Assembly: GCA_023251875.1 (NCBI GenBank)
Contig: JAHEXY010000001.1
Coordinates: 767,881 to 831,880 of the forward strand
DNA length: 64,000 bases
Source: Bacteroidota bacterium
GTDB lineage: Bacteria > Bacteroidota > Bacteroidia > JAHEXY01
Reading direction: 5' to 3'
Position numbers and translations under genes: made by a program. Every line of letters starts with the position of its first letter. Position 1 is the first letter of the stretch. This document shows positions 4,138 to 54,772 of this stretch, piece after piece. A model generated the notes under the pieces. It was not told the DNA's origin and ran no database searches. It saw nothing but the letters and a program-made list of their open reading frames with translations.

Positions 4138-5370
4138 CTAAATTTTCGGTGAGTTCTGGTAAATAGATCGAAATTTCTCTCCAACTACATTCATACTAAA
4201 TCTTTCTTCTGCGTATTTTGCAATTGAATATCTATTAGATAATGAATAATTTCTCATCATATTTTTAATAGCAATTAACAATTCTTCTTCATTTTTAGGA
4301 TGAATCAATATGCCATTTTGGATAGTAATGTGTCTTGATATATCTCCAACATTTGTAGAAATTATAGGCAAGCCACACATCATAGCCTCGAGCATTACGC
4401 ATGGCAAGTTTTCATAATTGCTAAACAGTAACAAAAAATGAGCATTTCTCATTAATTCAGCAATTTCAGTTTCGGTTTTTAAGCCATAAAATTTTACATG
4501 ATGCGGAAGTAGATTTTTTTGTTCACACAATTGTTCGTATTGTTTTTTTTCTGGCCCATCTCCAACTATATGTAATACAAAATTGAGGCTCTCATTTTTT
4601 AATTTTTCAGCAGCTTGAATAATTCCATTAATATTTTTTTGTTTATCATTTAAAGTTGAAACATGGAGAATATTAATTTGTTGATTAGCTGATGAGGTAA
4701 TTAGCTGATGAGATGATTTGTTGATTAGCTGATTTGTTGATGAGGTAATTAGTTGATGAGGGGGATAGAATATTTTTTGGTCAACTACATTGGATATTAT
4801 ATAGTATTTGTTTTTTAGTTTGTGACTAAGCATTTCATTTCTTAGATCTTCAGAAACGGTTATAACGGCTTTGGCATTTTTTACAATTGATTTTATAATT
4901 CGTTTTTTTAGCCAATTGCTTTTAAGATAATTTCCATCAGAAGGCAGATAGCCTGTCCAGTGTTCAAGCAAAATATAGGACAATCCATAAAACCATTTTA
5001 AAAGTAGTGCTATGATGCCAACAGGAAATGCAATATTCACTTGAACCAAATCGTAATCACGAATGTTATTTGTTGTACTCCCAATTCCTTTAAGGGTATA
5101 TTTTATGTAGTTGATTTGATCAATTAATCGTCCAATAAATAGCCAATTTATTTTTGATTTTGGATAATGAATAATTACTTCTTTTATTTCTGACTCACTA
5201 ATTTGAGTTTGTGCTTGAATGCAGTTTTTAGAAGAAGAGGCATGTACAACAGTAATTGTGCAATACTGAGAAGCCGATAATGCATGGCGCCTGACAAAAA
5301 TGCCCAATGTGGGATCATTATGATTAGGATACCAAGAACTTAAATATAAAATGTTTTTTTTCTTCTCCAT
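4138..5370 (-). CDS. Glycosyltransferase family 4 (group 1)
   Basis: YLSSWYPNHNDPTLGIFVRRHA, HVSTLNDKQKNINGIIQAAEKL, HIVGDGPEKKQYEQL, LPCVMLEAMMCGLPIISTNVGDI. Confidence 0.92.
   Translation of the reverse strand: MEKKKNILYLSSWYPNHNDPTLGIFVRRHALSASQYCTITVVHASSSKNCIQAQTQISESEIKEVIIHYPKSKINWLFIGRLIDQINYIKYTLKGIGSTTNNIRDYDLVQVNIAFPVGIIALLLKWFYGLSYILLEHWTGYLPSDGNYLKSNWLKKRIIKSIVKNAKAVITVSEDLRNEMLSHKLKNKYYIISNVVDQKIFYPPHQLITSSTNQLINKSSHQLITSSANQQINILHVSTLNDKQKNINGIIQAAEKLKNESLNFVLHIVGDGPEKKQYEQLCEQKNLLPHHVKFYGLKTETEIAELMRNAHFLLLFSNYENLPCVMLEAMMCGLPIISTNVGDISRHITIQNGILIHPKNEEELLIAIKNMMRNYSLSNRYSIAKYAEERFSMNVVGEKFRSIYQNSPKI
4676..4762. repeat. Low-complexity array of TTAGCTGATGAGG/TTGTTGATTAGCTGAT-type units inside the glycosyltransferase CDS
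   Basis: Repeated TTAGCTGATGAG, TTGATTAGCTGAT, GAGGTAATTAG; encodes HQLITSSTNQLINKSSHQLITSSANQQIN. Confidence 0.8.
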
Positions 5371-12108: not shown

Positions 12109-12513
12109 TTAGTTATAAAAGAAGAAGAAAAAAAATAAAATAGCTTTTTCTTTATCAACGCCATCAAAGCGTCCTAAAGTAGAACCGGAAGAATCATAAA
12201 CATAATTACCATCAATCCTGCCTAATGTGCTTCCTGAACCATCATAAACGTAATTACCATCAATCCTACCCATAGTACTTCCACTTCCATTGTAAACGTA
12301 ATTTCCATCAACTCTACCAATTGTGCTACCACTACCATCATAAATATAATTACCATCAATTCTGCCAATAGTACTTCCTGAAGCATTGTACACATAATTT
12401 CCATCAATGCGGCCAGCAGTACTACCTGAACTATTATAAAGGTATTGTGCAAATGAGCTTAAAGATGAAAATAAGAATACCATTGCAACAATAAGTTTGT
12501 AGATGTAATTCAT
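12109..12513 (-). CDS. Secreted protein with six 16-aa tandem repeats (5-fold beta-flower-like)
   Basis: Signal peptide MNYIYKLIVAMVFLFSSLSSFAQ then six Y(V/I/L)Y(N/D)xSGSTxGR(I/V/F)DGN units; C-terminal FFFFFFYN. Confidence 0.75.
   Translation of the reverse strand: MNYIYKLIVAMVFLFSSLSSFAQYLYNSSGSTAGRIDGNYVYNASGSTIGRIDGNYIYDGSGSTIGRVDGNYVYNGSGSTMGRIDGNYVYDGSGSTLGRIDGNYVYDSSGSTLGRFDGVDKEKAILFFFFFFYN
12157..12444 (-). repeat. Six tandem 48-bp coding repeats
   Basis: 16-aa period preserved at protein level, near-identical DNA units (CCATCAATCCTGCC...GTACTTCC). Confidence 0.9.
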
Positions 12514-22625: not shown

Positions 22626-22659
22626 AAACTTTGAACATTGAATCTTTAAACTTTAAACA
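22626..22659. repeat. Intergenic CTTTGAAC/CTTTAAAC micro-repeat
   Basis: ACTTTGAACATTGAATCTTTAAACTTTAAAC just upstream of lipoprotein gene. Confidence 0.65.
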
Positions 22660-22668
22660 AAATTATTT

Positions 22669-23055
22669 ATGAAAAAACTTCATTATTTAACAATAGCATC
22701 ATTATTGTTTTTTGCATCTTGTATTAAAGACGAAACTACTACTCTTGACGGTACATGGTCTTGTTCTGAGACAAGTGTTGTTTATGGAAGCACCAATCCT
22801 TATGAGGTTAATATAACAACTGATGCAAGTAATGAGAATAAAATATATTTAGAAAATTTTTATGATTTAGGATATAATAATAAAGTAACCGCTACTTTAA
22901 GTGGAGACAATATTTCAATTTCTTCTCAAACTATTGATGGGTATACCATTTCCGGAAGTGGTACAAAAAATTCTGAGAGCTCATTAAGTTTTACCTATTA
23001 TTCTTACGATGGAGCAGATCACGATACTATAACTTCCACGTATACTAAAAAATAA
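22669..23055 (+). CDS. Small predicted lipoprotein (lipocalin-like)
   Basis: Lipobox LLFFASC; LDGTWSCSETS, beta-rich. Confidence 0.6.
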   Translation: MKKLHYLTIASLLFFASCIKDETTTLDGTWSCSETSVVYGSTNPYEVNITTDASNENKIYLENFYDLGYNNKVTATLSGDNISISSQTIDGYTISGSGTKNSESSLSFTYYSYDGADHDTITSTYTKK

Positions 23056-27654: not shown

Positions 27655-27681
27655 CCTTTGAACTTTAAACTTTGAACTTTA
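27655..27681. repeat. Intergenic CTTTGAACTTTAAACTTTGAACTTTA micro-repeat
   Basis: Three CTTTRAAC units immediately upstream of lipoprotein gene. Confidence 0.75.
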
Positions 27682-27694
27682 TATTTACAATTCT

Positions 27695-28204
27695 ATGCTT
27701 AAAAAAGTAAAAATAGTAACTATTCTTGCATTTGCTGTGTTAGCAGGCCTATCCTCTTGCATTCAATTTCAAAACTATCCCATCGAACCTCATATTAAAT
27801 TTGTAAGTTTTACTAAAATACCTACTACAAGTGGTGTAGATGACAAAGGTACTTTGCTTTTTTCTTTTACTGATGGAGATGGAGATTTAGGTTTAGATGA
27901 TACTCAAACAGATCCTCCTTATGATACTGCAAGCATTTATTACTATAATATATTTATTAGGTATTATGAAAAACAAAATGGAGAATACAATGAAGTTGTA
28001 CTTACGCCATCTAATAATGGAAGGTATCCCAATCTAACTCCCGATGGATCAAAAAAGGGAATTCAAGGCAATATAGCAGTTGATTTGTATATCAATAACC
28101 CTTTTTCTATTTATGATACTATCCGTTATGAAGTGTATATTGTTGATAGAGCGTTAAATCACAGTGATACCATCACTACACCTGATATTATAGTAAATAA
28201 GTAA
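27695..28204 (+). CDS. Predicted lipoprotein, unknown function
   Basis: Lipobox LAGLSSC; GTLLFSFTDGDGDLGLDD motif common in Bacteroidetes lipoproteins. Confidence 0.65.
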   Translation: MLKKVKIVTILAFAVLAGLSSCIQFQNYPIEPHIKFVSFTKIPTTSGVDDKGTLLFSFTDGDGDLGLDDTQTDPPYDTASIYYYNIFIRYYEKQNGEYNEVVLTPSNNGRYPNLTPDGSKKGIQGNIAVDLYINNPFSIYDTIRYEVYIVDRALNHSDTITTPDIIVNK

Positions 28205-28572: not shown

Positions 28573-28584
28573 TTTAATGATTCT

Positions 28585-28613
28585 AATAACCAACAACTAA
28601 TAACGAACAACTA
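28585..28613. repeat. Intergenic (C/T)AACAAC micro-repeat
   Basis: ATAACCAACAACTAATAACGAACAACTAG. Confidence 0.65.
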
Positions 28614-39465: not shown

Positions 39466-40755
39466 TTGCTTTCTAAAATTCTACAAACTTTTGTATTTCG
39501 TTTTTCATCCGCTATTTTTTCATTTGTTATTGTATTAATAACAGCACATTTATTGGGCACAGAGGGTAGGGGAGAGCTTAGTTTATTATTGGTATCTATT
39601 ACTTTTATTCTAATGCTTAATAATTTTATTGGAGGTCCATCACTTGTATATCTTGTGCCTCGCTATCCTTCAATTCAATTATTAAAAATTTCTTACGCAT
39701 GGGGATTTATTGTTTGCATTCTTGGAACAATAATGCTGAAAACATTTTCTCTTATCCCGGATTGGTTGTTGTTTCCTGTTTTTTTGCTTTCTGTTTTGCA
39801 GTCTATTGTAACCATACATCATTTTTTTTTATTAGGAAAAAAAGAAATAAAGGTGGTGAACATAATAGCGTTTACGCAACCATTTATGCAAATCTTGCTT
39901 ATTCTATTGATTTATTGGCATCAAATGCTAAATGTAATACAAGTAATTTATGCTATGTATTTTTCTTATACCATAACTGTATTGTTTAGTATTTATACCA
40001 TGAGAAATTATTTTTTTGTTGATGTTGCTTTTGTTGATGTTGCTTTGGAAGTAAAGAAAGAAAAATCTCTTTGGAAAGATATGATTTCCTATGGCTTTAT
40101 GAATCAAGTAGCCAATATTGCACAACTTATTAGTTATAGAGCAAACTATTATTTTTTAAGTGCAATTGTAGGTATTGAAGCTCTTGGTATTTTTTCTACC
40201 GGAACTTCTGTAGCAGAATCGGTATGGTTAATTGGTACGAGTATTTCGTTGGTGCAGTATTCAGATATAGCGAATACAAATGATAAAATGTATGCTAAAG
40301 TCACTACATTAAGTTTATTGAAATTGTCATGCTTGGCAACCATTATTGCTTTAATTGTAGTTAATATTTTACCGAGTGAATTTTATGTTTTTATTTTTGG
40401 AAATCAGTTTTCTGAAATAAAAGTTGTGTTGTTGTGGCTTAGTCCGGGTATATTAGCCATTTCAATGGGAATTGTAATCAGCCATTTTTTTTCTGGTACG
40501 GGAAGGTATTATATTAATGCAGTAAGTTCAGGAATAGGAATGTTATTTTCCATTATTTCTGCTTATTATTTTATTAATCATTATCAAATAATGGGAGCCA
40601 GCATGGTAACAAGTATTTCTTATGTAATAAGCACAATCTTGTTATTTTATTTTTTTATTAAGAAAGAGAAAGTAGCATTAAAAGAATTTATTCCTAAAAT
40701 ATCAGATGTAAGAATGCTTATTGAGCAATTTCGAACAAAAACAACCAACAACTAA
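39466..40755 (+). CDS. Polysaccharide flippase/oligosaccharide translocase (MATE-like, Wzx)
   Basis: 12-TM pattern, FRFSSAIFSFVIVLITAHLLGTEGRGELSLL. Confidence 0.82.
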   Translation: MLSKILQTFVFRFSSAIFSFVIVLITAHLLGTEGRGELSLLLVSITFILMLNNFIGGPSLVYLVPRYPSIQLLKISYAWGFIVCILGTIMLKTFSLIPDWLLFPVFLLSVLQSIVTIHHFFLLGKKEIKVVNIIAFTQPFMQILLILLIYWHQMLNVIQVIYAMYFSYTITVLFSIYTMRNYFFVDVAFVDVALEVKKEKSLWKDMISYGFMNQVANIAQLISYRANYYFLSAIVGIEALGIFSTGTSVAESVWLIGTSISLVQYSDIANTNDKMYAKVTTLSLLKLSCLATIIALIVVNILPSEFYVFIFGNQFSEIKVVLLWLSPGILAISMGIVISHFFSGTGRYYINAVSSGIGMLFSIISAYYFINHYQIMGASMVTSISYVISTILLFYFFIKKEKVALKEFIPKISDVRMLIEQFRTKTTNN

Positions 40756-40764
40756 CAACAAAAT
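40733..40764. repeat. ACAACCAACAACTAACAACAAA micro-repeat overlapping flippase stop codon
   Basis: Same family as 28585-28613; encodes terminal TTNN*. Confidence 0.6.
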
Positions 40765-40766
40765 GT

Positions 40767-42641
40767 ATGTGTGGAATTGCTGGAATTGTTGATTTAAACG
40801 GTAAATACAAGAGTGAACTACCTGGTATTGTAAAAAAAATGTCGGATAGCATTGTGCATCGTGGACCGGATGATGAAGGTGTTTTTGTTCATAACAACCT
40901 TGCTTTAGCTCATAGGCGTTTGTCTATTCTCGATCTTAGTGCTGCTGGTCACCAACCCATGCGTAATGACAGAGAAGATCTCTCTATTACTTTTAACGGA
41001 GAAATATACAACTACATTGAAATTAGAAAAGAGCTGATTGCTTTAGGAAGAAAATTTAAAAGCAATACAGATACAGAAGTTGTTTTACAAGCCTATGATG
41101 AGTGGGGAGAAAATTGCTTGGCTAAATTTAATGGCATGTGGGCTTTTGTAATTTATGATAAAAAGAAAAATTTATTGTTTGCTTCACGCGATAGATTTGG
41201 CGTAAAACCATTGTATTATTATCATGATAAAAATGTTTTTTTATTTGCTTCAGAACATAAAGCTATTCTTGCATCTTCCATTATAGAAACAGAAATAAAT
41301 AAGAAAGCTGCTTTTGATTATTTGGTATTGGGTCAGTTAGAAGTACAAGAAGAAAGTCTGTTCGAAAATATTTTTGAATTACAGCCTTCTCATGCTTTTA
41401 TATTTGATATTAATAATAACAATTTAAAAAAATGGAAATATTATTCATTGCAATATCAAGCTGAGTGGGAAAATTATAATGAAGCAAAAGCAGAACAATT
41501 AAGTTTTAAAGTAAATGAATTACTCAGCAATGCAGTTAAAATACGGCTTCGTTCAGATGTAGAAATTGGTGCTTGCCTAAGTGGAGGATTAGATAGTTCG
41601 GCAATAGTGGGCCTGATTAATCAATTAAGAAATAAAACAAATTCACAATTAAAAGTATTTACGGCAACTTATAAAGATGCTGCAATTGATGAAACGTATT
41701 GGGCAACAAAAATGGCACAGTATGTAAATGCAGAAGCCTATCAGATTTCTCCTTCAGCAAATGATTTAGCAGATGATCTTGAAAAATTGGTGTATGCTCA
41801 GGATATTCCGTTTTTGTCTACCAGCACTTTTTCTCAATACAGTGTAATGAAATTGGTAAAAAATACCGGAATAAAAGTAACATTAGACGGACAAGGCGCT
41901 GATGAAATTTTTGGAGGTTATGATCCGCATATAATTTCATTTTGGTTAGAGCTTGCGCGAAGAGGAAAATTTCAATTGTTGATGAATGAATGGAATGTTG
42001 GAAAAAACAATATAGTAAATAGTGATATTTTGAAATATAATTTAATGAAATTTATTGTGTTGAAATATTTTCCAATTTCATTTATTAATAAGATGTATCA
42101 AAAAAATACTGAAGCGTATTTTATTAATCCGGATTTTTGGAAGGAAAATTCTCAAAGTTTAAACTATGTTCCATTTAATATTTATTCTTCTTTAAATGAA
42201 CAATTATTCAACCATGCTACGGCAGGTCAATTAAAATTAATGTTGCGTACCAATGAACGCAATGCCATGTTTCATTCTGTAGAAGCACGACAACCATTTG
42301 CTGATGATTTACCATTGATAGAATTTATGTTTCAACAGGCTTCGGTATACAAAATTCATAACAAACAAACCAAATATTTACTGAGGCAATCACTAAAAGG
42401 TATTGTACCTGAAGAAATTCGTTTAAGAAAAGACAAATTGGGTTTTTCTGCCCCTGAATCTCAATGGTTATTTCAATTAAAAAATGTTTTAAGAGAATAC
42501 CTAACAGACGATCTTTCTCTTTTTTTTGATGTTAAAAAATTAAAAGAAAACTGGGATCAGTATTTTAATCATCCGAATCCTCAACTTTGGCGTATTATTA
42601 ATTTTGCTGTGTGGAAGAAAGTATTTGGAAAGCAAGCTTAA
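40767..42641 (+). CDS. asnB: Asparagine synthase (glutamine-hydrolysing)
   Basis: MCGIAGIVDLNGKY, HRGPDDEGVF, FNGEIYNYIEIR, ACLSGGLDSSAIVGL, LDGQGADEIFGGYDPH. Confidence 0.96.
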   Translation: MCGIAGIVDLNGKYKSELPGIVKKMSDSIVHRGPDDEGVFVHNNLALAHRRLSILDLSAAGHQPMRNDREDLSITFNGEIYNYIEIRKELIALGRKFKSNTDTEVVLQAYDEWGENCLAKFNGMWAFVIYDKKKNLLFASRDRFGVKPLYYYHDKNVFLFASEHKAILASSIIETEINKKAAFDYLVLGQLEVQEESLFENIFELQPSHAFIFDINNNNLKKWKYYSLQYQAEWENYNEAKAEQLSFKVNELLSNAVKIRLRSDVEIGACLSGGLDSSAIVGLINQLRNKTNSQLKVFTATYKDAAIDETYWATKMAQYVNAEAYQISPSANDLADDLEKLVYAQDIPFLSTSTFSQYSVMKLVKNTGIKVTLDGQGADEIFGGYDPHIISFWLELARRGKFQLLMNEWNVGKNNIVNSDILKYNLMKFIVLKYFPISFINKMYQKNTEAYFINPDFWKENSQSLNYVPFNIYSSLNEQLFNHATAGQLKLMLRTNERNAMFHSVEARQPFADDLPLIEFMFQQASVYKIHNKQTKYLLRQSLKGIVPEEIRLRKDKLGFSAPESQWLFQLKNVLREYLTDDLSLFFDVKKLKENWDQYFNHPNPQLWRIINFAVWKKVFGKQA

Positions 42642-47562: not shown

Positions 47563-50500
47563 ATGAATATACGCTTCGTGTTTTTTGGTCTTGTCTTATA
47601 TCTGTTAAGCTTTACAGCAGGATATTCTTATGCCCAAAATGCACAAACTAATTTTACTTCTGAAAAAGAAATTGCGAAACAAGCAGAAGTTTTTTTTACC
47701 CAAGAAAATTATGTTGGAGCAAAGCCCTTATTTTCTCAACTTTTGAGCTTACACCCCAATGATGTTAACTATACTTTTAAATTTGGGGTTTGTGAAATCT
47801 ATGCAAGTAAAGACAAGTCTTTATCTATTCAATGGCTCGAAAAAGCTACACAAGCGCCTAATGCAGAACTCAACTATTTTTATTATTTAGGATTGGCCTA
47901 TCATTTAAATTATAGGTTTAATGATGCAATAGATACCTATACTAGTTTCTTAAAAAAAGCCGATAAAAAAACTTTGGCACTTTATCCTGCCCAAAGGCAA
48001 ATAGATATGTGTAATCATGCCAAGCAATTATTGGTTGAAGTACAAGATTTAGTTGTGGTAGAATCGAAAGAAGTAAAACGAGACGAATTTTATAAAAATT
48101 ATATTGTTCGTCAAGACGCAGGTAAATTAATTATTAAGCCTGATGAATTTAAATCTTCTCTCGATATGAAAGAAGGAGAGAGTTCCATTATATTTTTTCC
48201 AAAGGAAAACCCGGTTATTTTTTATTCCAGTTACGGAGAGGATAAAAGTAAAGGGAAAGATATTTTTAAAGTGTCTAAGCTTCCCAATGGAGCTTGGAGT
48301 AAACCTGAAAATTTAGGTACTGTAGTAAATACTCCTGAGGATGAAGATTTCTCCTATGTAACACCAGACGGACTCACTTTGTTTTTTTGCTCTAAGGGTC
48401 ATAATAGTATTGGGGGCTATGATGTTTTTAGAACTACCCGAGAAGAAAATTCCAATAACTGGACAGAGCCTATCAATATGGGTTTTGCCATTAACTCTCC
48501 TGATGATGACATTTTGTATGTTGCCGATCCAGAAAAAGGGGTTGCGTATTTTGCTACCACGCGCCAAAGTGTGCAAAGCATGATTGTGGTTCATAAATTA
48601 AATATTGATGAAAAACCCTTGGAAAATGTAATTATAAAAGGCAAGTTTGCTGTTGATGCCGATCCCAATTTAATGGATGCAAAAATTACCATTTTTACTT
48701 TACAAAATGATGAGGTGGTTGGGGAGTTTAGTACAAAAAAAGAAAATGGCGATTACTTATTGATTGTTCCTGCCGGTCAAAAATATAAAATGGTAGTGAA
48801 TGCCGATGGAATGGAACCCTTAACCCAAATGATTGAAGTTCCTGTTCAAAAAAAGGCCGAAGCCATGGGTCAAAAAATTAATATTAGTAAGATAGATGGT
48901 AAAGATTCGATGGTAGTAGTGAATGACTTTTTTGGATTGGTAAAAAATTCTGATCGTTTGCTCGATTCTAGAGTATTGAAAGAACAAGCTCAATTAATGG
49001 CTTTAATGCCTGATGAAGAAATAAAAGATACTGCGGCTATGGTTTCAAATGAGCAAGAAGCGACTGATTCTATAGAAGAAGCTGTTACCAATGCAGAAAA
49101 AACTCCTGTAAGCAAAAATGTTTCGGATAATGAATTGGTAAATATTGCCTATGATGATGCCAAAAAATCTCAAAAAGAAGCTGAAGAATATAAAGAGAAT
49201 GCAGATATAGCTTATTACTTAGCACAAAAAAGAAGTGAGACAGTAGCTAAGCAAACTGATGTTATTGATGGTTTAGAAGAAAAGATTAAAAAAGCTTCGG
49301 GCAATGCTTCTCAAAAGGATATGGATGATTTAAAGAAGATGAAACAACAAGCTACACAATGTGGCATGGAGGCTAAAGTAGCATTTAATATTGCAAAAAA
49401 GATGGAAACTGAAGCCAATGTTACTCAAAAAGAAGCAGAGTTAACCTTATCATTTGCTAAAGAATTAGAAACAGCTTCTAAATCAAGTTCCGATGAAAAA
49501 GCAATTAAATTACTAGAAGACCAAAAGAAAAAATTAGAGGACTTGGATAAACAGCGCAATGCTAATAATTATTCTACCGAAACCATGCGTGGCATTTCCA
49601 ATAATAAATTAAGTAGTGCAAAAGAAGCTAAAGAAAAAGCAAGAAAATTGCAAGAAGAAACTGTAAATATCAATAGTCAGGTTCAAAAATTAAAACAAGA
49701 TATAGAATCAACTCAAGACGCTAAACAAAAAGATAAATTGCAAAAACAATTAGAAACGCTTGAAAAAACGGAACAAGAATCGGAATTAAAAGCACAAACG
49801 GCATTTAAGCTGGCTAAAGATTTAGAAAATGAAGCAGGTAATTTAAATCAAGAAGCAGAATTGATCAGTGATGTGCTTTCTGAAATAAATATTGGTTATG
49901 GCAAAAATAATGTGTCTTCTCAAAAAATTGATAAAACTGTTTTGAATGAGCAAATTCAAGAAATTCAAAACAAAACCATTGCTTATGTAAAAGAAGAGGA
50001 TAATGCAGTATTAGCTAATAATTCAGGATATCAAAATACCAATGAACAAAATACAAAGAGTGAGGAAGCGAAGTTAACTTCAATATCTCAAAATGATTCA
50101 GCACTTGCATTTGAAATAGATACAGTAGGATTAAATAGCCCTGATTCAATTCTTGTAAAATCTTTTCAAGAATATTATAAAGCAGAACAATTGGGTAAGT
50201 GGATTAGTTTGATTCAAGGAGATATAACTGCATTTAAAGACAGTTTAAAAACCCCGGATAATAAAAACAGACAAGATAAAATTCAAACATCTATAAAATC
50301 ATTAGAACAATTGGTGCAAGAGAAACAAGTAGAGAAGCAAGAGATAGCCCAAGAAGCTGCTACCATTAAGTTTTCAGCACTTTCTCCTTCTGCAACCACA
50401 ACAAAACTTTCTAAAAAGGAAGAAAAAGAAAGGGATACAAAATATGAAGAAAGAAAACAGCAATATTTTAAAACCAAAGGATTTGCCTTAGATAAGCCAC

Positions 50501-53500
50501 TTGCAACCGATACCGCTAATAGTGCAGCCGCATATAAAAATGCATCCTTTTATAAAAAACAGTCGCAGTTTTATAATAGAGAAATTGCCGATTTGCAAAA
50601 TGAATTAGATAAATCAAATGACCCTGAATTTAAAAAAGATGCAGACCATAAAATTAGAATGTACCATTCTTTGGCTGCAAACAAGTTTATAGATTATGAG
50701 AGATATTCTTCTGCAGCTGATTCTTTAAAGAGAATGGAAGAAGAACTCAAAAAACAAACACCTCAGAACGAACAATTGGCTGAAAATAATTCAAGCACTT
50801 CTTCAGATTCTTCTTCCACTGCTAGTATAGAAAGTTCTAAAAAAGCTGATGAGAATATTCCAACAATAAAATTACCACCAATAAGTAGAAGAGATTTTAC
50901 TATGGAAGATGTGGCAACTGAAGTAGAGAAAGCAAAAAACTTTGATCGTGAAGCAAAAAGTATCCAACAAGAAGCCGACATGATTGGTCAAAATATTGAG
51001 AATATAACAGATTCAGTATTGGTTCGTCACGGTCAACATGATATTGATTCATTAGAAAAAATTGCCGACTATCAAAGACAAAGAGCAGATACATGCCAAG
51101 CTCGAGTATATATGATGAAGCAGTTGGTAGCAGCAGAAATAAAAGCTAAAAACGATTCTATACAAAAAACAATTGAAGTTAAAACTGAAAAAAAGTTAAG
51201 CAAGAAAGAGAAAAAAGCCAAAGAGTCGTTTGATCTTGCCCAACAACAAAAGGCCATAGCTCAGGCAAGAGCTGATAGTATTGCTGCTATTATACCGCTT
51301 AAAACCGATACTACCAATTATTCAAACGAAGCTGAACGCCTAGAGAAACAGGCTGATTATTATGCAGAGGTAGCTAATAATTCACGTGCTGATGCCGAAA
51401 AATTACGGGCGCAAGCAAATGAATTACGACAAGCAGCTTTGGCAACAGATGACTCTAAAGTAAAAGAAACTACCTTAAAAAAGGTAATGGAGTTAGAAGA
51501 TAAAGCCAATGCTAAAAACCAACAAATGCAAGATTTGCTAAATACTTCAAGTGATTATAAGAGGCAAGCTAAAGAAGAATACAGGCGTTCGGGCGATACT
51601 TTAAATTTAGCTCAGCAAATACAAGGCAATAAAAAGTTTGAAGCTATTTTAGGGATGTATGAAAATGCTTATAAAAAAGATAAAGACACAGAAAATACAA
51701 CCAGACAACAAGAGTATTTAGAAACAATGGCTGCTGCCACAAAAGATGCAGAAGTAAAAGAAAAATTGCAAGACAAAGCCTCTGATTTTAAAACAAAGGC
51801 AAATGCCTTGTACGAACAAACTGCAAAAGCATACTACGATGCCAATAAAGAATTGTATACTATTAATAAAACCAATCTAAAAAAAATAGCACAGAAATCA
51901 TTTAATAATAGTGAAATTATGATGGCTAATTTATTAGAAGATGAAATTAATTTTTACAATAAAAAAGTAGATTCACTTAATGCAATTGCAGCTAATACCA
52001 ATGATCCGGAAAAATTAAATCCGCTTATTCAAGAAATGATCAAGGATCAAAAGATTGCTACTGAAAAACAAAAAAAGGCAGGCGAGATTTATTATAAACT
52101 GCGTCAAGATACAAGCTTGCATCAAGTTTATTTTTCTGCAAATGATTTTATTAATGAAGCTGCCAAACATATTGTTGTACCGGCTACCTCTCTTGATTCT
52201 TTATTGGCTGCGAATAATTCCGGTAAGTCGAAAAATAAATCGAAAGATAAAGCTGTAGTTCAAAGTTCAAAGTTGGAGAGTTCAAAGTCTAATACAGAAA
52301 ATAATAATGGAGAAGCGACAAACCTTACTTCAGTTCAAAGTTCAATGTTGGATAGTTTAAAGTCTAAATCAACCACAGAGAAATCTGAAGCAAATAATGA
52401 TGTGGTTCAAAGTTCAAAGTTGGAGAGTTCAAAGAATGAAACATCTTCAAATCAAAAACTAGAAATGTCTGAAACTAAAAATAATTCAAAACTTGAAACT
52501 AAATTATCTCCTGAACAAATTAAATTACTGCAAGACCCCAAAATAAGAGAAGTACTCAATTCAGAAGAATATAAAAATTACAAAGTAATTGCATTGGAAG
52601 CTAATTTATCTAAAGTAGAAGGACAAGCAGAATTGGATAATGCTAAAGAATGGAAAGACAAGAGCAATGAAGCAAATGCAAATGCCAAAACCATTTTGCA
52701 AAATTCAGATAAAATAAAAGACAAAAAAGAAGCCGCTAAAGAAGTTACTAAAGCAGAAGAACAATACAAGTTGGCAAAAATGTATTCTGCTAAATCCGAT
52801 TCTGTAAAAAAAGTGGCGGACAATATTGTTGCATCTTCAGTGGCAAAAACAAATGAAAGTGAATTGTTTTTGCAAGGCCTTGATAAAATTACTTATCAAA
52901 AAATAATGACTATCAAAAATGACACTGCTTTGGATAATTTGGTTTCAAAAGTAATGCTGCAAGGTAATGATATTACTACACTTTTAGCTCTGGCAGATAA
53001 TTCAGTTCAAGGTTCAAAGGAAGTTCAAAGTTCAAAAGACGTTCAAGGTTCAAAGTTGGAGAGTTCAAAATCTAATACTGCAAACAATAAATCAGAAACT
53101 AATAATACAGTTCAAGGTTCGAAGGAAGTTCAAAGTTCAAAAGACGTTCAAGGTTCAAAGTTGGATGGTTCAAAATCTAATACTGCAAACAATAAATCAG
53201 AAACTAATAATACAGTTCAGGGTTCAAAGGTAGAAAGTTCAAAGTCTAGTAACTCAAATAATAAATCAGAAGCAAATGCAGGGCAAACCCAACAACCAAC
53301 AACCAATAACCAACAACAACCCAAAAATGTTGTTACCAATATCAGCAAATTGAAAACACCCGATTATACTTTTTTTACTTTAAATCAATCTGCTTATAAT
53401 GCTTCAAGTCCAATTCCGGTTGATGTAAAAGCTCCTCAAGGTATTTATTTTATGGTACAAGTTGGAGCATTTAAAAACCCAATTCCGCAAGATTTATTTA

Positions 53501-54531
53501 AAGGTATAACTCCTGTAACCGGAGAAACCACTCCTCAAGGTGTGATTCGTTATTCTGCCGGTATGTTTAAAACATTTGAATCGTGTAATTATGCTAAAAA
53601 TTTAATTCGAGGTATGGGTTATGGAGATGCATTTGTAGTTGCATACATTGATGGAAAAAGAGTTTCATTACAAGATGCTTTAGCAAAATTAGGAAAACTT
53701 GAAGGTCAAGATCAATTAAGTTATAAGCAAGCGGAACAATTAGAATTAAACCAATTAAAAGATTTGCATTTGCCTGTTACAAGCCCATCTGAACAAGATA
53801 TTAAAAATACTATGGCCAATGCCAGCGATATTTCAAAAGTACCGGGCTTAATCTATACAGTACAAATTGGTGTGTATTCAAATCCGGTAACACCTGATAA
53901 GCTATATAATATTTCGCCTATTAGTTATATCAAAACTTCTAGCGGTTATATACGGTATTCAACCGGACAGTATAAAAAATTTGCTGATGCAGATGTGAGA
54001 AAAAATGGGGTTGTAAAAACAGGCATTTCTGATGCTTTTGTTACCGCCTATTTTAACGGAGATAGAATTCCAATTGCTGATGCAGCGCAAATTGAAAGTG
54101 GAACTAAAGGTGGAGTTCAAAGTTCAACGGTTCAAAGTTCAAGTGCAGTTCAAGGTTCAAAGTTAGAAAGTTCAAAGTCTGGTGCTGATAATAGTTCTCA
54201 AACAACAAATACTAAAGAAAAATCTACTAACAACCAACAACCAACAACCAACAACGCAATTGTATTTAAAGTTCAAATGGGAGCCTTTAAAGGTGATGTA
54301 GCTGTTAAAATGGTAAATCTATTTTTGCAATTTAATTCTTATGGAATAGAACAAACTAAAAACGATAATGGTTATACCATTTACACTACAGGTTCATTTA
54401 ACAATATTAACGATGCAAATGTTCTTAAAAATAAAGTGGTAAATGCCGGTATTTCTGATGCATTTGTAATAGCCTTTAATAATGGCAAAAGAATTACAGT
54501 GACGGAGGCTGTGAGTTTGGTGAAGAAATAA
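47563..54531 (+). CDS. Giant modular PD40/TPR/coiled-coil protein with three C-terminal SPOR-like repeats
   Basis: 2322 aa; N-terminal signal and TPR, PD40-type blades (SSIIFFPKENPVIFYSSYGEDKSKGKDIFKV, SYVTPDGLTLFFCSKGHNSIGGYDVF), long K/E/Q-rich coiled coil, three repeats starting YFMVQVGAF, IYTVQIGVY, VFKVQMGAF. Confidence 0.88.
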   Translation: MNIRFVFFGLVLYLLSFTAGYSYAQNAQTNFTSEKEIAKQAEVFFTQENYVGAKPLFSQLLSLHPNDVNYTFKFGVCEIYASKDKSLSIQWLEKATQAPNAELNYFYYLGLAYHLNYRFNDAIDTYTSFLKKADKKTLALYPAQRQIDMCNHAKQLLVEVQDLVVVESKEVKRDEFYKNYIVRQDAGKLIIKPDEFKSSLDMKEGESSIIFFPKENPVIFYSSYGEDKSKGKDIFKVSKLPNGAWSKPENLGTVVNTPEDEDFSYVTPDGLTLFFCSKGHNSIGGYDVFRTTREENSNNWTEPINMGFAINSPDDDILYVADPEKGVAYFATTRQSVQSMIVVHKLNIDEKPLENVIIKGKFAVDADPNLMDAKITIFTLQNDEVVGEFSTKKENGDYLLIVPAGQKYKMVVNADGMEPLTQMIEVPVQKKAEAMGQKINISKIDGKDSMVVVNDFFGLVKNSDRLLDSRVLKEQAQLMALMPDEEIKDTAAMVSNEQEATDSIEEAVTNAEKTPVSKNVSDNELVNIAYDDAKKSQKEAEEYKENADIAYYLAQKRSETVAKQTDVIDGLEEKIKKASGNASQKDMDDLKKMKQQATQCGMEAKVAFNIAKKMETEANVTQKEAELTLSFAKELETASKSSSDEKAIKLLEDQKKKLEDLDKQRNANNYSTETMRGISNNKLSSAKEAKEKARKLQEETVNINSQVQKLKQDIESTQDAKQKDKLQKQLETLEKTEQESELKAQTAFKLAKDLENEAGNLNQEAELISDVLSEINIGYGKNNVSSQKIDKTVLNEQIQEIQNKTIAYVKEEDNAVLANNSGYQNTNEQNTKSEEAKLTSISQNDSALAFEIDTVGLNSPDSILVKSFQEYYKAEQLGKWISLIQGDITAFKDSLKTPDNKNRQDKIQTSIKSLEQLVQEKQVEKQEIAQEAATIKFSALSPSATTTKLSKKEEKERDTKYEERKQQYFKTKGFALDKPLATDTANSAAAYKNASFYKKQSQFYNREIADLQNELDKSNDPEFKKDADHKIRMYHSLAANKFIDYERYSSAADSLKRMEEELKKQTPQNEQLAENNSSTSSDSSSTASIESSKKADENIPTIKLPPISRRDFTMEDVATEVEKAKNFDREAKSIQQEADMIGQNIENITDSVLVRHGQHDIDSLEKIADYQRQRADTCQARVYMMKQLVAAEIKAKNDSIQKTIEVKTEKKLSKKEKKAKESFDLAQQQKAIAQARADSIAAIIPLKTDTTNYSNEAERLEKQADYYAEVANNSRADAEKLRAQANELRQAALATDDSKVKETTLKKVMELEDKANAKNQQMQDLLNTSSDYKRQAKEEYRRSGDTLNLAQQIQGNKKFEAILGMYENAYKKDKDTENTTRQQEYLETMAAATKDAEVKEKLQDKASDFKTKANALYEQTAKAYYDANKELYTINKTNLKKIAQKSFNNSEIMMANLLEDEINFYNKKVDSLNAIAANTNDPEKLNPLIQEMIKDQKIATEKQKKAGEIYYKLRQDTSLHQVYFSANDFINEAAKHIVVPATSLDSLLAANNSGKSKNKSKDKAVVQSSKLESSKSNTENNNGEATNLTSVQSSMLDSLKSKSTTEKSEANNDVVQSSKLESSKNETSSNQKLEMSETKNNSKLETKLSPEQIKLLQDPKIREVLNSEEYKNYKVIALEANLSKVEGQAELDNAKEWKDKSNEANANAKTILQNSDKIKDKKEAAKEVTKAEEQYKLAKMYSAKSDSVKKVADNIVASSVAKTNESELFLQGLDKITYQKIMTIKNDTALDNLVSKVMLQGNDITTLLALADNSVQGSKEVQSSKDVQGSKLESSKSNTANNKSETNNTVQGSKEVQSSKDVQGSKLDGSKSNTANNKSETNNTVQGSKVESSKSSNSNNKSEANAGQTQQPTTNNQQQPKNVVTNISKLKTPDYTFFTLNQSAYNASSPIPVDVKAPQGIYFMVQVGAFKNPIPQDLFKGITPVTGETTPQGVIRYSAGMFKTFESCNYAKNLIRGMGYGDAFVVAYIDGKRVSLQDALAKLGKLEGQDQLSYKQAEQLELNQLKDLHLPVTSPSEQDIKNTMANASDISKVPGLIYTVQIGVYSNPVTPDKLYNISPISYIKTSSGYIRYSTGQYKKFADADVRKNGVVKTGISDAFVTAYFNGDRIPIADAAQIESGTKGGVQSSTVQSSSAVQGSKLESSKSGADNSSQTTNTKEKSTNNQQPTTNNAIVFKVQMGAFKGDVAVKMVNLFLQFNSYGIEQTKNDNGYTIYTTGSFNNINDANVLKNKVVNAGISDAFVIAFNNGKRITVTEAVSLVKK
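52255..52440. repeat. GTTCAAAGTTCAAAGTTGGAGAGTTCAAAG arrays inside giant CDS
   Basis: Repeated GTTCAAAG units encoding VQSSKLESSK. Confidence 0.85.
53005..53250. repeat. 105-bp tandem duplication built from GTTCAAGG/GTTCAAAG units, plus a partial third copy
   Basis: VQGSKEVQSSKDVQGSKL(ES/DG)SKSNTANNKSETNNT twice (35 aa period), then VQGSKVESSKSS. Confidence 0.92.
53283..53330. repeat. CAACCAACAACC-type array inside giant CDS
   Basis: CCCAACAACCAACAACCAATAACCAACAACAACCC (QQPTTNNQQQP). Confidence 0.8.
54115..54260. repeat. Second GTTCAAAG array followed by CCAACAAC array between SPOR-like repeats 2 and 3
   Basis: GTTCAAAGTTCAACGGTTCAAAGTTCAAGTGCAGTTCAAGGTTCAAAG ... CTAACAACCAACAACCAACAACCAACAACGC. 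Confidence 0.85.
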
Positions 54532-54585: not shown

Positions 54586-54737
54586 AAGCCTGAAAGGCTT
54601 TAATATCAATAGCCTCCGATAAAATCGGAGGTAAGAGTTTGATTGTTGATTTTTGAACCCCTACGGGGTTCAAAGATTTGTTTGCATTTCCCCCTGATTT
54701 CATCAGAGGTTATTCAAATTTAATCCCTTCGGGATTA
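54586..54737. repeat. Cluster of five different short hairpins
   Basis: AAGCCTGAAAGGCTT, CCTCCGATAAAATCGGAGG, GAACCCCTACGGGGTTC, CTGATTTCATCAG, TAATCCCTTCGGGATTA. Confidence 0.9.
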
Positions 54738-54772
54738 GCTGATCAACAAAGCATTACTCCTTAAAAACGACA

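Follow-up and report, generated by a model that had tools for sequence, protein, structure and literature searches.

The micro-repeats that occur both between genes and in the linkers of a 2322-aa giant protein in the genome of a Bacteroidota bacterium are best explained, with a probability that we put at about three in four, as arrays that terminate small IVS-like mobile elements, together with the dispersed relics of such elements, the linkers of the giant protein being arms of the same kind. A complete element would consist of two inverted arms, each typically composed of four to five degenerate heptamers (sometimes octamers), placed around a gene for the 23S rRNA intervening sequence protein (23S_rRNA_IVP/S23, PF05635; IVP below). 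Such elements would insert between genes and inside operons, and their arms would persist inside coding regions when stop-free and in frame. This explanation would join two puzzles, the abundance of heptameric tandem repeats and the nature of the common S23/23S rRNA IVP genes, and would recast reported regulatory heptamers, as well as the IVP genes in cas operons that are counted as having a CRISPR-associated function (PMC3936711), as mobile-element insertions. Moreover, it offers a mechanism by which disordered protein linkers arise and makes IVP function testable via the cognate heptamers.

Heptamer and octamer arrays in the window and its genome

The window, that is, the whole stretch of 64,000 nt that was analysed, contains two families of heptamer units which the preliminary description had read as simple repeats, spread through the genome by a shared DNA-level process and tolerated as protein linkers. 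Both units are in clear excess. The + strand of the window has 19 copies of GTTCAAAG, whereas 50 dinucleotide shuffles led to an expectation of 1.5 and never gave more than 4; for CCAACAAC, 9 copies compare with an expected 0.5. The units run in tandem both in the linkers and between genes. The intergenic copies that had been named (22626-22659, 27655-27681, 28583-28613 and 40740-40765) were recovered, as was the direct adjacency of the two families at 53005-53324 and again at 54115-54258 (Table 1). One GTTCAAAG copy, at 54668, has to be set apart from the rest, as it belongs to an unrelated REP-like palindrome, GAACCCCTACGGGGTTC. A cluster of such REP-like palindromes (GCCTCCGATAAAATCGGAGG, GAACCCCTACGGGGTTC and AATCCCTTCGGGATT) lies at 54600-54745, directly downstream of the giant gene.

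Table 1 Repeat arrays of the window and their host gene (positions of the window)
Feature	Position	Strand	Remarks
Octamer array, AATTAGCT family	4670..4765	-	in frame in the 410-aa ORF 4138-5370; encodes LITSSTNQLINKSSHQLITSSANQQI
Single GTTYAAR array	22629..22659	-	upstream of ORF at 22669
Single GTTYAAR array	27655..27681	-	upstream of ORF at 27695
Single CYAAYAA array	28583..28613	+	19 nt exact match to the right arm of L244, an IVP element of this genome
Single CYAAYAA array	40740..40765	+	directly upstream of ORF at 40767
2322-aa giant ORF, linker host	47563..54531	+	leader, TPR-like region, PD40, long coiled-coil-like region, C-terminal SPOR-type repeats
Linker 1, GTTCAAAG units (VQSSKLESSK)	52255..52440	+	
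Linker 2, GTTCAARG units (VQGSK/VQSSK)	53002..53270	+	
CCAACAA array (QQPTTNNQQQ), end of linker 2	53285..53324	+	
Linker 3, GTTCAAAG/GTTCAAGG units	54112..54180	+	
CTAACAACCAACAACCAACAACCAACAAC array, end of linker 3	54225..54258	+	

The spread of the units was followed in a sample of 1.25 Mb from the genome (G000, 4.81 Mb in 23 contigs), comprising the whole contig of the window and parts of two others, with ORFs called mechanically throughout. Tandem pairs are above chance; single units outside the giant gene are not. Arrays of at least two GTTYAAR units numbered 31 against 1.0 in shuffled sequence, nine of the 31 lying in the giant gene; the corresponding numbers were 23 against 0.1 for CYAAYAA and 20 against 3.8 for a third family, the octamer RATKWGNT. 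A family-free scan of the same sample yielded 30 arrays of period 7 and 8 of period 8 (38 together), and zero to three arrays for each of the periods 4-6 and 9-15. The arrays of period 7 and 8 are a class of their own, unlike general microsatellites; the range of unit lengths that characterizes slippage-type microsatellites was not found, and at IVP loci the arrays have inverted partners. The label of simple repeats therefore had to be given up for arrays that have periods of 7 and 8 only and form the paired ends of IVP-bearing insertions, at least one of which differs between species. In a comparison of genomes, eight arrays of period 7 or 8 were found in 369 kb of IVP-rich genomes, a set that includes arrays belonging to IVP loci, against none in 348 kb of IVP-less genomes, with the other periods equal.

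With predicted ORFs taking up about 91% of the sample, 21 of 46 period-7 and 20 of 26 period-8 arrays are located outside them, so that the arrangement is that of the TAACTGA and STRR repeats, namely tandem direct heptamers in mainly intergenic positions. Gene-less inverted pairs and single arrays of the same families are dispersed in the genomes, mostly near gene boundaries; relative to genes, both orientations were seen, also just 3' of stop codons. An orientation bias of CTTTGAAC upstream of starts was discarded as probably an effect of start-codon calling, the opposite orientation being stop-free and lengthening ORFs. The intergenic arrays of the window are single arms for which no inverted partner was found (within 600 bp in the case of 22629..22659), and their origin from elements is therefore one that we infer. 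The octamer array at 4670..4765, which lies in a minus-strand ORF read by eye as a glycosyltransferase, has 21 nt exactly in common with an arm of L248, another IVP element of this genome. Elsewhere in the window, at 12193-12440, tandem repeats of 48/96 bp occur in the minus-strand ORF 12109-12513, which encodes a repeat protein unrelated to the heptamers.

Of 194 genomes of the class, 101 have homologues of the C-terminal part of the giant protein, for the most part encoded in open frames of some 1500-2600 aa, around 2000 aa. Codon choice in the three linkers of the giant protein is set by the DNA unit and not by the usage of the gene: AAG accounts for 13 of 25 Lys codons in the linkers versus 44 of 247 in the rest of the gene (p=3e-4), GTT for 14 of 17 Val codons versus 42 of 114 (p=5e-4), and AGT/TCA for 42 of 53 Ser codons versus 64 of 152 (p=2e-6). 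The units of linker 2 lie within a tandem duplication of 105 bp (52997-53230), the copies of which have 95% matches. On the preferred reading, the VQSSK and TTNNQQP linkers would be element arms, locally multiplied by duplication and domesticated. Genes of related genomes that hold in-frame GTTCAAAG arrays were read by eye as those for LeuRS, IleRS, ArgRS, MiaB, TsaB, CtaA and a UbiD-type protein; the TsaB and CtaA arrays adjoin arrays of other heptamer families, a side-by-side placement also seen in the giant protein. One sister species lacks the MiaB insertion, and the arrays of the UbiD loop are present in three of the four species compared and missing from another sister. The unit-driven linker codons and the in-frame arrays in conserved enzymes of other genomes support the earlier proposal of one DNA-level process behind the intergenic and the coding copies.

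More than 117 stretches in the species collection contain an exact 25-mer, GTTCAAAGTTCAAGGTTCAAAGTTT. The labels of these genomes and MAGs include Bacteroidota, Acidobacteria, Verrucomicrobia, Deltaproteobacteria, Chloroflexi, Nitrospirae and Planctomycetota, among others, and the contigs concerned reach 67% GC. Some copies of the 25-mer adjoin genes for 23S rRNA intervening sequence proteins. IVP genes were present in 33 of 36 genomes carrying the 25-mer, which by itself is little evidence because 48 of 59 relatives also have them.

Inverted arrays on both sides of IVP genes

The genome of the window has five 23S_rRNA_IVP genes of the four-helix-bundle type (best E 3.1e-38; the match at L245, with E 4e-32, is over the cut-off), and all five are flanked by inverted 7/8-mer arrays, each of another family: TTATTAG, AATTGAAA, AATKGAY, AATTTGAA and AATTAGCT. 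Among 33 IVP loci of the class, the flank pairs of 22 scored above the 99th percentile of mismatched pairs, and with other phyla added this held for 40 of 60. In the full set of 115 loci from many phyla, reached by adding 16 named loci on plasmids and a further 40 from genomes, 78 exceeded the 99th percentile of the mismatched-flank control (p=1.7e-68), with a median paired score of 39 versus 17 for mismatched flanks; clear inverted arrays were absent at about one third of the 115. The plasmid loci, mostly from cyanobacteria, with Azospirillum in addition, gave a paired median of 45 versus 18 when taken alone, and clear arrays were recognized by inspection in 15 of the 16.

The best arm period was 7 in 77 and 8 in 14 of 97 cases, and the autocorrelation of the DNA beside IVP genes showed peaks at lags 7, 14 and 21 only, which were gone at a distance of 500-900 nt. 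An arm typically has four to five units, and an element spans about 490 bp (median 489). Among 200 ordinary ORFs of 90-200 aa from G000, used as a control, six had flank pairs scoring at least 30: one IVP, two RAYT transposases with REP palindromes, one PDDEXK_3, one DUF559 and one weak case; the sole inverted pair of the 7-mer type belonged to the IVP.

The link between the dispersed arrays and the elements was followed through their units. Arrays dispersed in G000 matched the arms of the genome's own five IVPs in 33 of 56 cases, whereas AT-rich foreign sets drawn at random gave 15 matches (p=0.013), and two of the three families have units exactly in common with these arms. GTTYAAR has no cognate IVP among the five; arrays of this family flank IVP genes, in + orientation on the left and - on the right, at L133, L137, L144, L158 and L174, in five other genomes belonging to Bacteroidales/Tannerella and Acidobacteria. 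Over 59 genomes, the count of GTTYAAR arrays correlated weakly with that of IVP genes (rho 0.24, p=0.07). Similar arms were found in about 1% of the IVP pairs below 50% protein identity, in 7% at 50-60%, in 32% at 60-80% and in 83% above that, and arm likeness tracked IVP protein identity across phyla (Mantel p=5e-4). As similar IVPs have similar arms, either the gene and its repeats travel together or the protein recognizes the repeats.

On plasmids, IVP genes were found to separate cas6 from cas4, cas10 from cmr3, and the genes of the two ribonucleotide reductase subunits from each other; at L405, L413 and L409, all from cyanobacterial plasmids, CRISPR-Cas operons are broken up by IVP genes that have heptamer ends. 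No IVP match was found on phages. In some genomes, several IVP genes lie within a few kb (G009:C2:45151-48915, G029:C1:116338-123580), as if elements gathered at hot spots, and the IVP gene at L277 has arms of TAACTGA-type units.

Probable mobility of the elements and alternative explanations

An insertion difference bounded by arrays was observed at L264, where one species has an element of about 530 bp with GTTTCAR arms in the space between two genes. The same two genes are 28-186 bp apart in four sister species, without arrays, and homology ends at the outer edges of the arrays. Gain in the one species is the simpler reading of this comparison, and a single loss in the ancestor of the four sisters could also account for it. 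A target-site duplication could not be made out at the one IVP site compared, the sister spacers being too divergent. L255 had also been considered as an empty-site test and was set aside, as its insertion is common to the whole genus (all three members) with changed units. No transposase or other DNA-cutting/joining enzyme was seen among the genes encoded in the elements.

We infer that the elements move, that the IVP has a role in this movement and that each single arm descends from a complete element. According to the citing texts (PMC4990558, PMC3936711), five four-helix bundles make up a ring in the IVP of Xanthomonas campestris (Lin et al. 2006); the X. campestris IVP structure 2gsc (XCC0516), which we found by sequence, has five chains. 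The pentamer could bind single-stranded tandem units, about one heptamer per subunit, and this binding might help the arms to be copied to new places, single arms then being relics or one-ended copies. Arms of four to five units fit such a ring model, which they do not prove. The intermediate might be a single strand or an RNA hairpin. In the RNA fold of L264 the arms are paired (z=-5.35), as in the rRNA IVS; over the 115 IVP loci there was no excess of G.U-compatible changes between the arms (96 versus 77, p=0.17), and RNA pairing as a selected feature is therefore unsupported. The IVP family is reported to be homologous to Avd of the diversity-generating retroelements (PMC10053308).

The arrays might instead have arisen by replication slippage, with heptamers growing in place according to the footprint of the polymerase and IVP genes merely lying in repeat-rich intergenic DNA. 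The heptamer excess known in many bacteria, for which the polymerase-footprint idea is cited in a passage of PMC4692102, is in line with this, as are the differences in unit number between Coxiella strains (PMC4990558) and the 105-bp duplication in the giant gene, which is a case of local tandem growth. Slippage, however, makes no matched inverted arrays around one gene family of the kind found at 78 of 115 IVP loci, nor does it account for the identical blocks of 19-21 nt at distant loci, for the lone 7-mer-type inverted pair among the 200 control ORFs being at an IVP, or for arrays that come and go together with the IVP gene in the one sister comparison that differs; we therefore consider it unlikely. 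Clearly less probable still is a role of the arrays in host regulation or as translation leaders, which has been proposed for TAACTGA in Beggiatoaceae; the coding copies would then be coincidental. Many intergenic arrays do lie 5-60 nt upstream of start codons, and CYAAYAAC is A-rich in a group, the Bacteroidetes, described in passages of PMC4679880 and PMC6847099 as being without Shine-Dalgarno sequences; but arrays also occur just downstream of stops, in both orientations and in frame inside enzymes, the families change from one IVP to the next in a single genome, and the downstream genes seen here are unrelated.

The least probable alternative, to which we give hardly any weight, is that a Y1 (RAYT) transposase moves the arrays, which would be REP-like palindromes, with the IVP as incidental cargo. 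The gene-less inverted pairs, with their short spacers and dispersal between genes, do look REPIN-like; the genome has 7 Y1/RAYT matches, 45 of 59 relatives have Y1 genes, and Y1 number is correlated with the number of IVP genes (rho 0.47), although IVP number also scales with genome size. Y1 as the driver was nevertheless rejected, since the two RAYT loci inspected in the genome have classical GC-rich REP palindromes and no heptamer arrays, and Y1 number is no predictor of GTTYAAR arrays (rho 0.16, p=0.22).

Relation to known elements and repeats

IVP-bearing elements with terminal arrays, the reading preferred here, have their closest counterpart in the 23S rRNA IVS of Coxiella burnetii (PMC4990558), which encodes a protein of the same family, PF05635, is of similar size (428 nt versus a median span of 489 here), has an inverted-repeat stem around the ORF and carries tandem heptamers (GACAGAT) directly before the S23 ORF. 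These heptamers vary in number between strains, and RNase III cleaves at the first of them (PMC4990558). The inverted repeats found here could likewise form a closing stem, and an IVP/S23 gene is encoded by the complete elements only, the arrays of the window being without one. Unlike the rRNA IVS, the present elements lie between protein genes and not in the 23S rRNA gene, have heptamer or octamer arrays on both sides in dozens of families, and are accompanied by dispersed single arms and gene-less pairs, also in coding sequence.

The TAACTGA repeats of Beggiatoaceae, Cyanobacteria and some Bacteroidetes (MacGregor 2015; PMC4679880) resemble the present arrays in being intergenic tandem heptamers near starts with a patchy distribution over phyla; the available text of that report describes them as possible translational regulatory sites, without a link to IVP genes. 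The GGGAATC and GGGGA(C/T)T repeats of Xanthomonas and Nostoc (Rehm 2015; PMC4692102) and the cyanobacterial STRR are likewise intergenic heptamer arrays near ORFs, and paired inverted copies are mentioned for Xanthomonas in a passage of the same source (PMC4692102). In the portion of that paper available, heptamers of the GGGAATC type are interpreted as G-quadruplex or slippage repeats, with no mention of IVP (PMC4692102). The IVPs of cyanobacterial plasmids examined here have G-rich heptamer arms (TAGGGAG, AACAGGG and AAAAGGG). A literature search, outside which lay most subscription journals and all preprints, found nothing that joins dispersed heptamers to IVP genes outside rRNA. As a wider and more tentative proposal, to which we give somewhat less than even odds, the IVP/S23 proteins may be dedicated factors of a very widespread class of elements, their ring binding one 7-nt unit per subunit with lineage-specific heptamer codes, and STRR, TAACTGA and GGGAATC may be the footprints of these elements, supplying both intergenic DNA and protein linkers.

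The elements share with REPIN/RAYT the dispersal of inverted pairs of short repeats in intergenic DNA and a dedicated gene flanked by the same repeats; with MITEs, the gene-less pairs have terminal inverted repeats in common. Unlike in REPIN/RAYT, the gene encodes a four-helix bundle without known nuclease activity, and the arms are tandem 7-mers instead of REP hairpins, the inspected RAYTs of the genome carrying REPs of their own. Two of the high-scoring control loci have other genes between inverted repeats. The PDDEXK_3 (GxxExxY) gene at L054:5364-5750 (G000 C11:145364-145750) has inverted octamer-like arrays, GCAGAGGCGCAGAGGCGCAAAG, on both sides, a layout as in the IVP elements but with a nuclease-fold gene. 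The DUF559 gene at L069:6547-6972 (G000 C11:446547-446972) has a near-perfect inverted repeat, GTCCCCCTTTGAAGGGGG(T/C)AGGGGGATGT, around it and is perhaps another small mobile unit.
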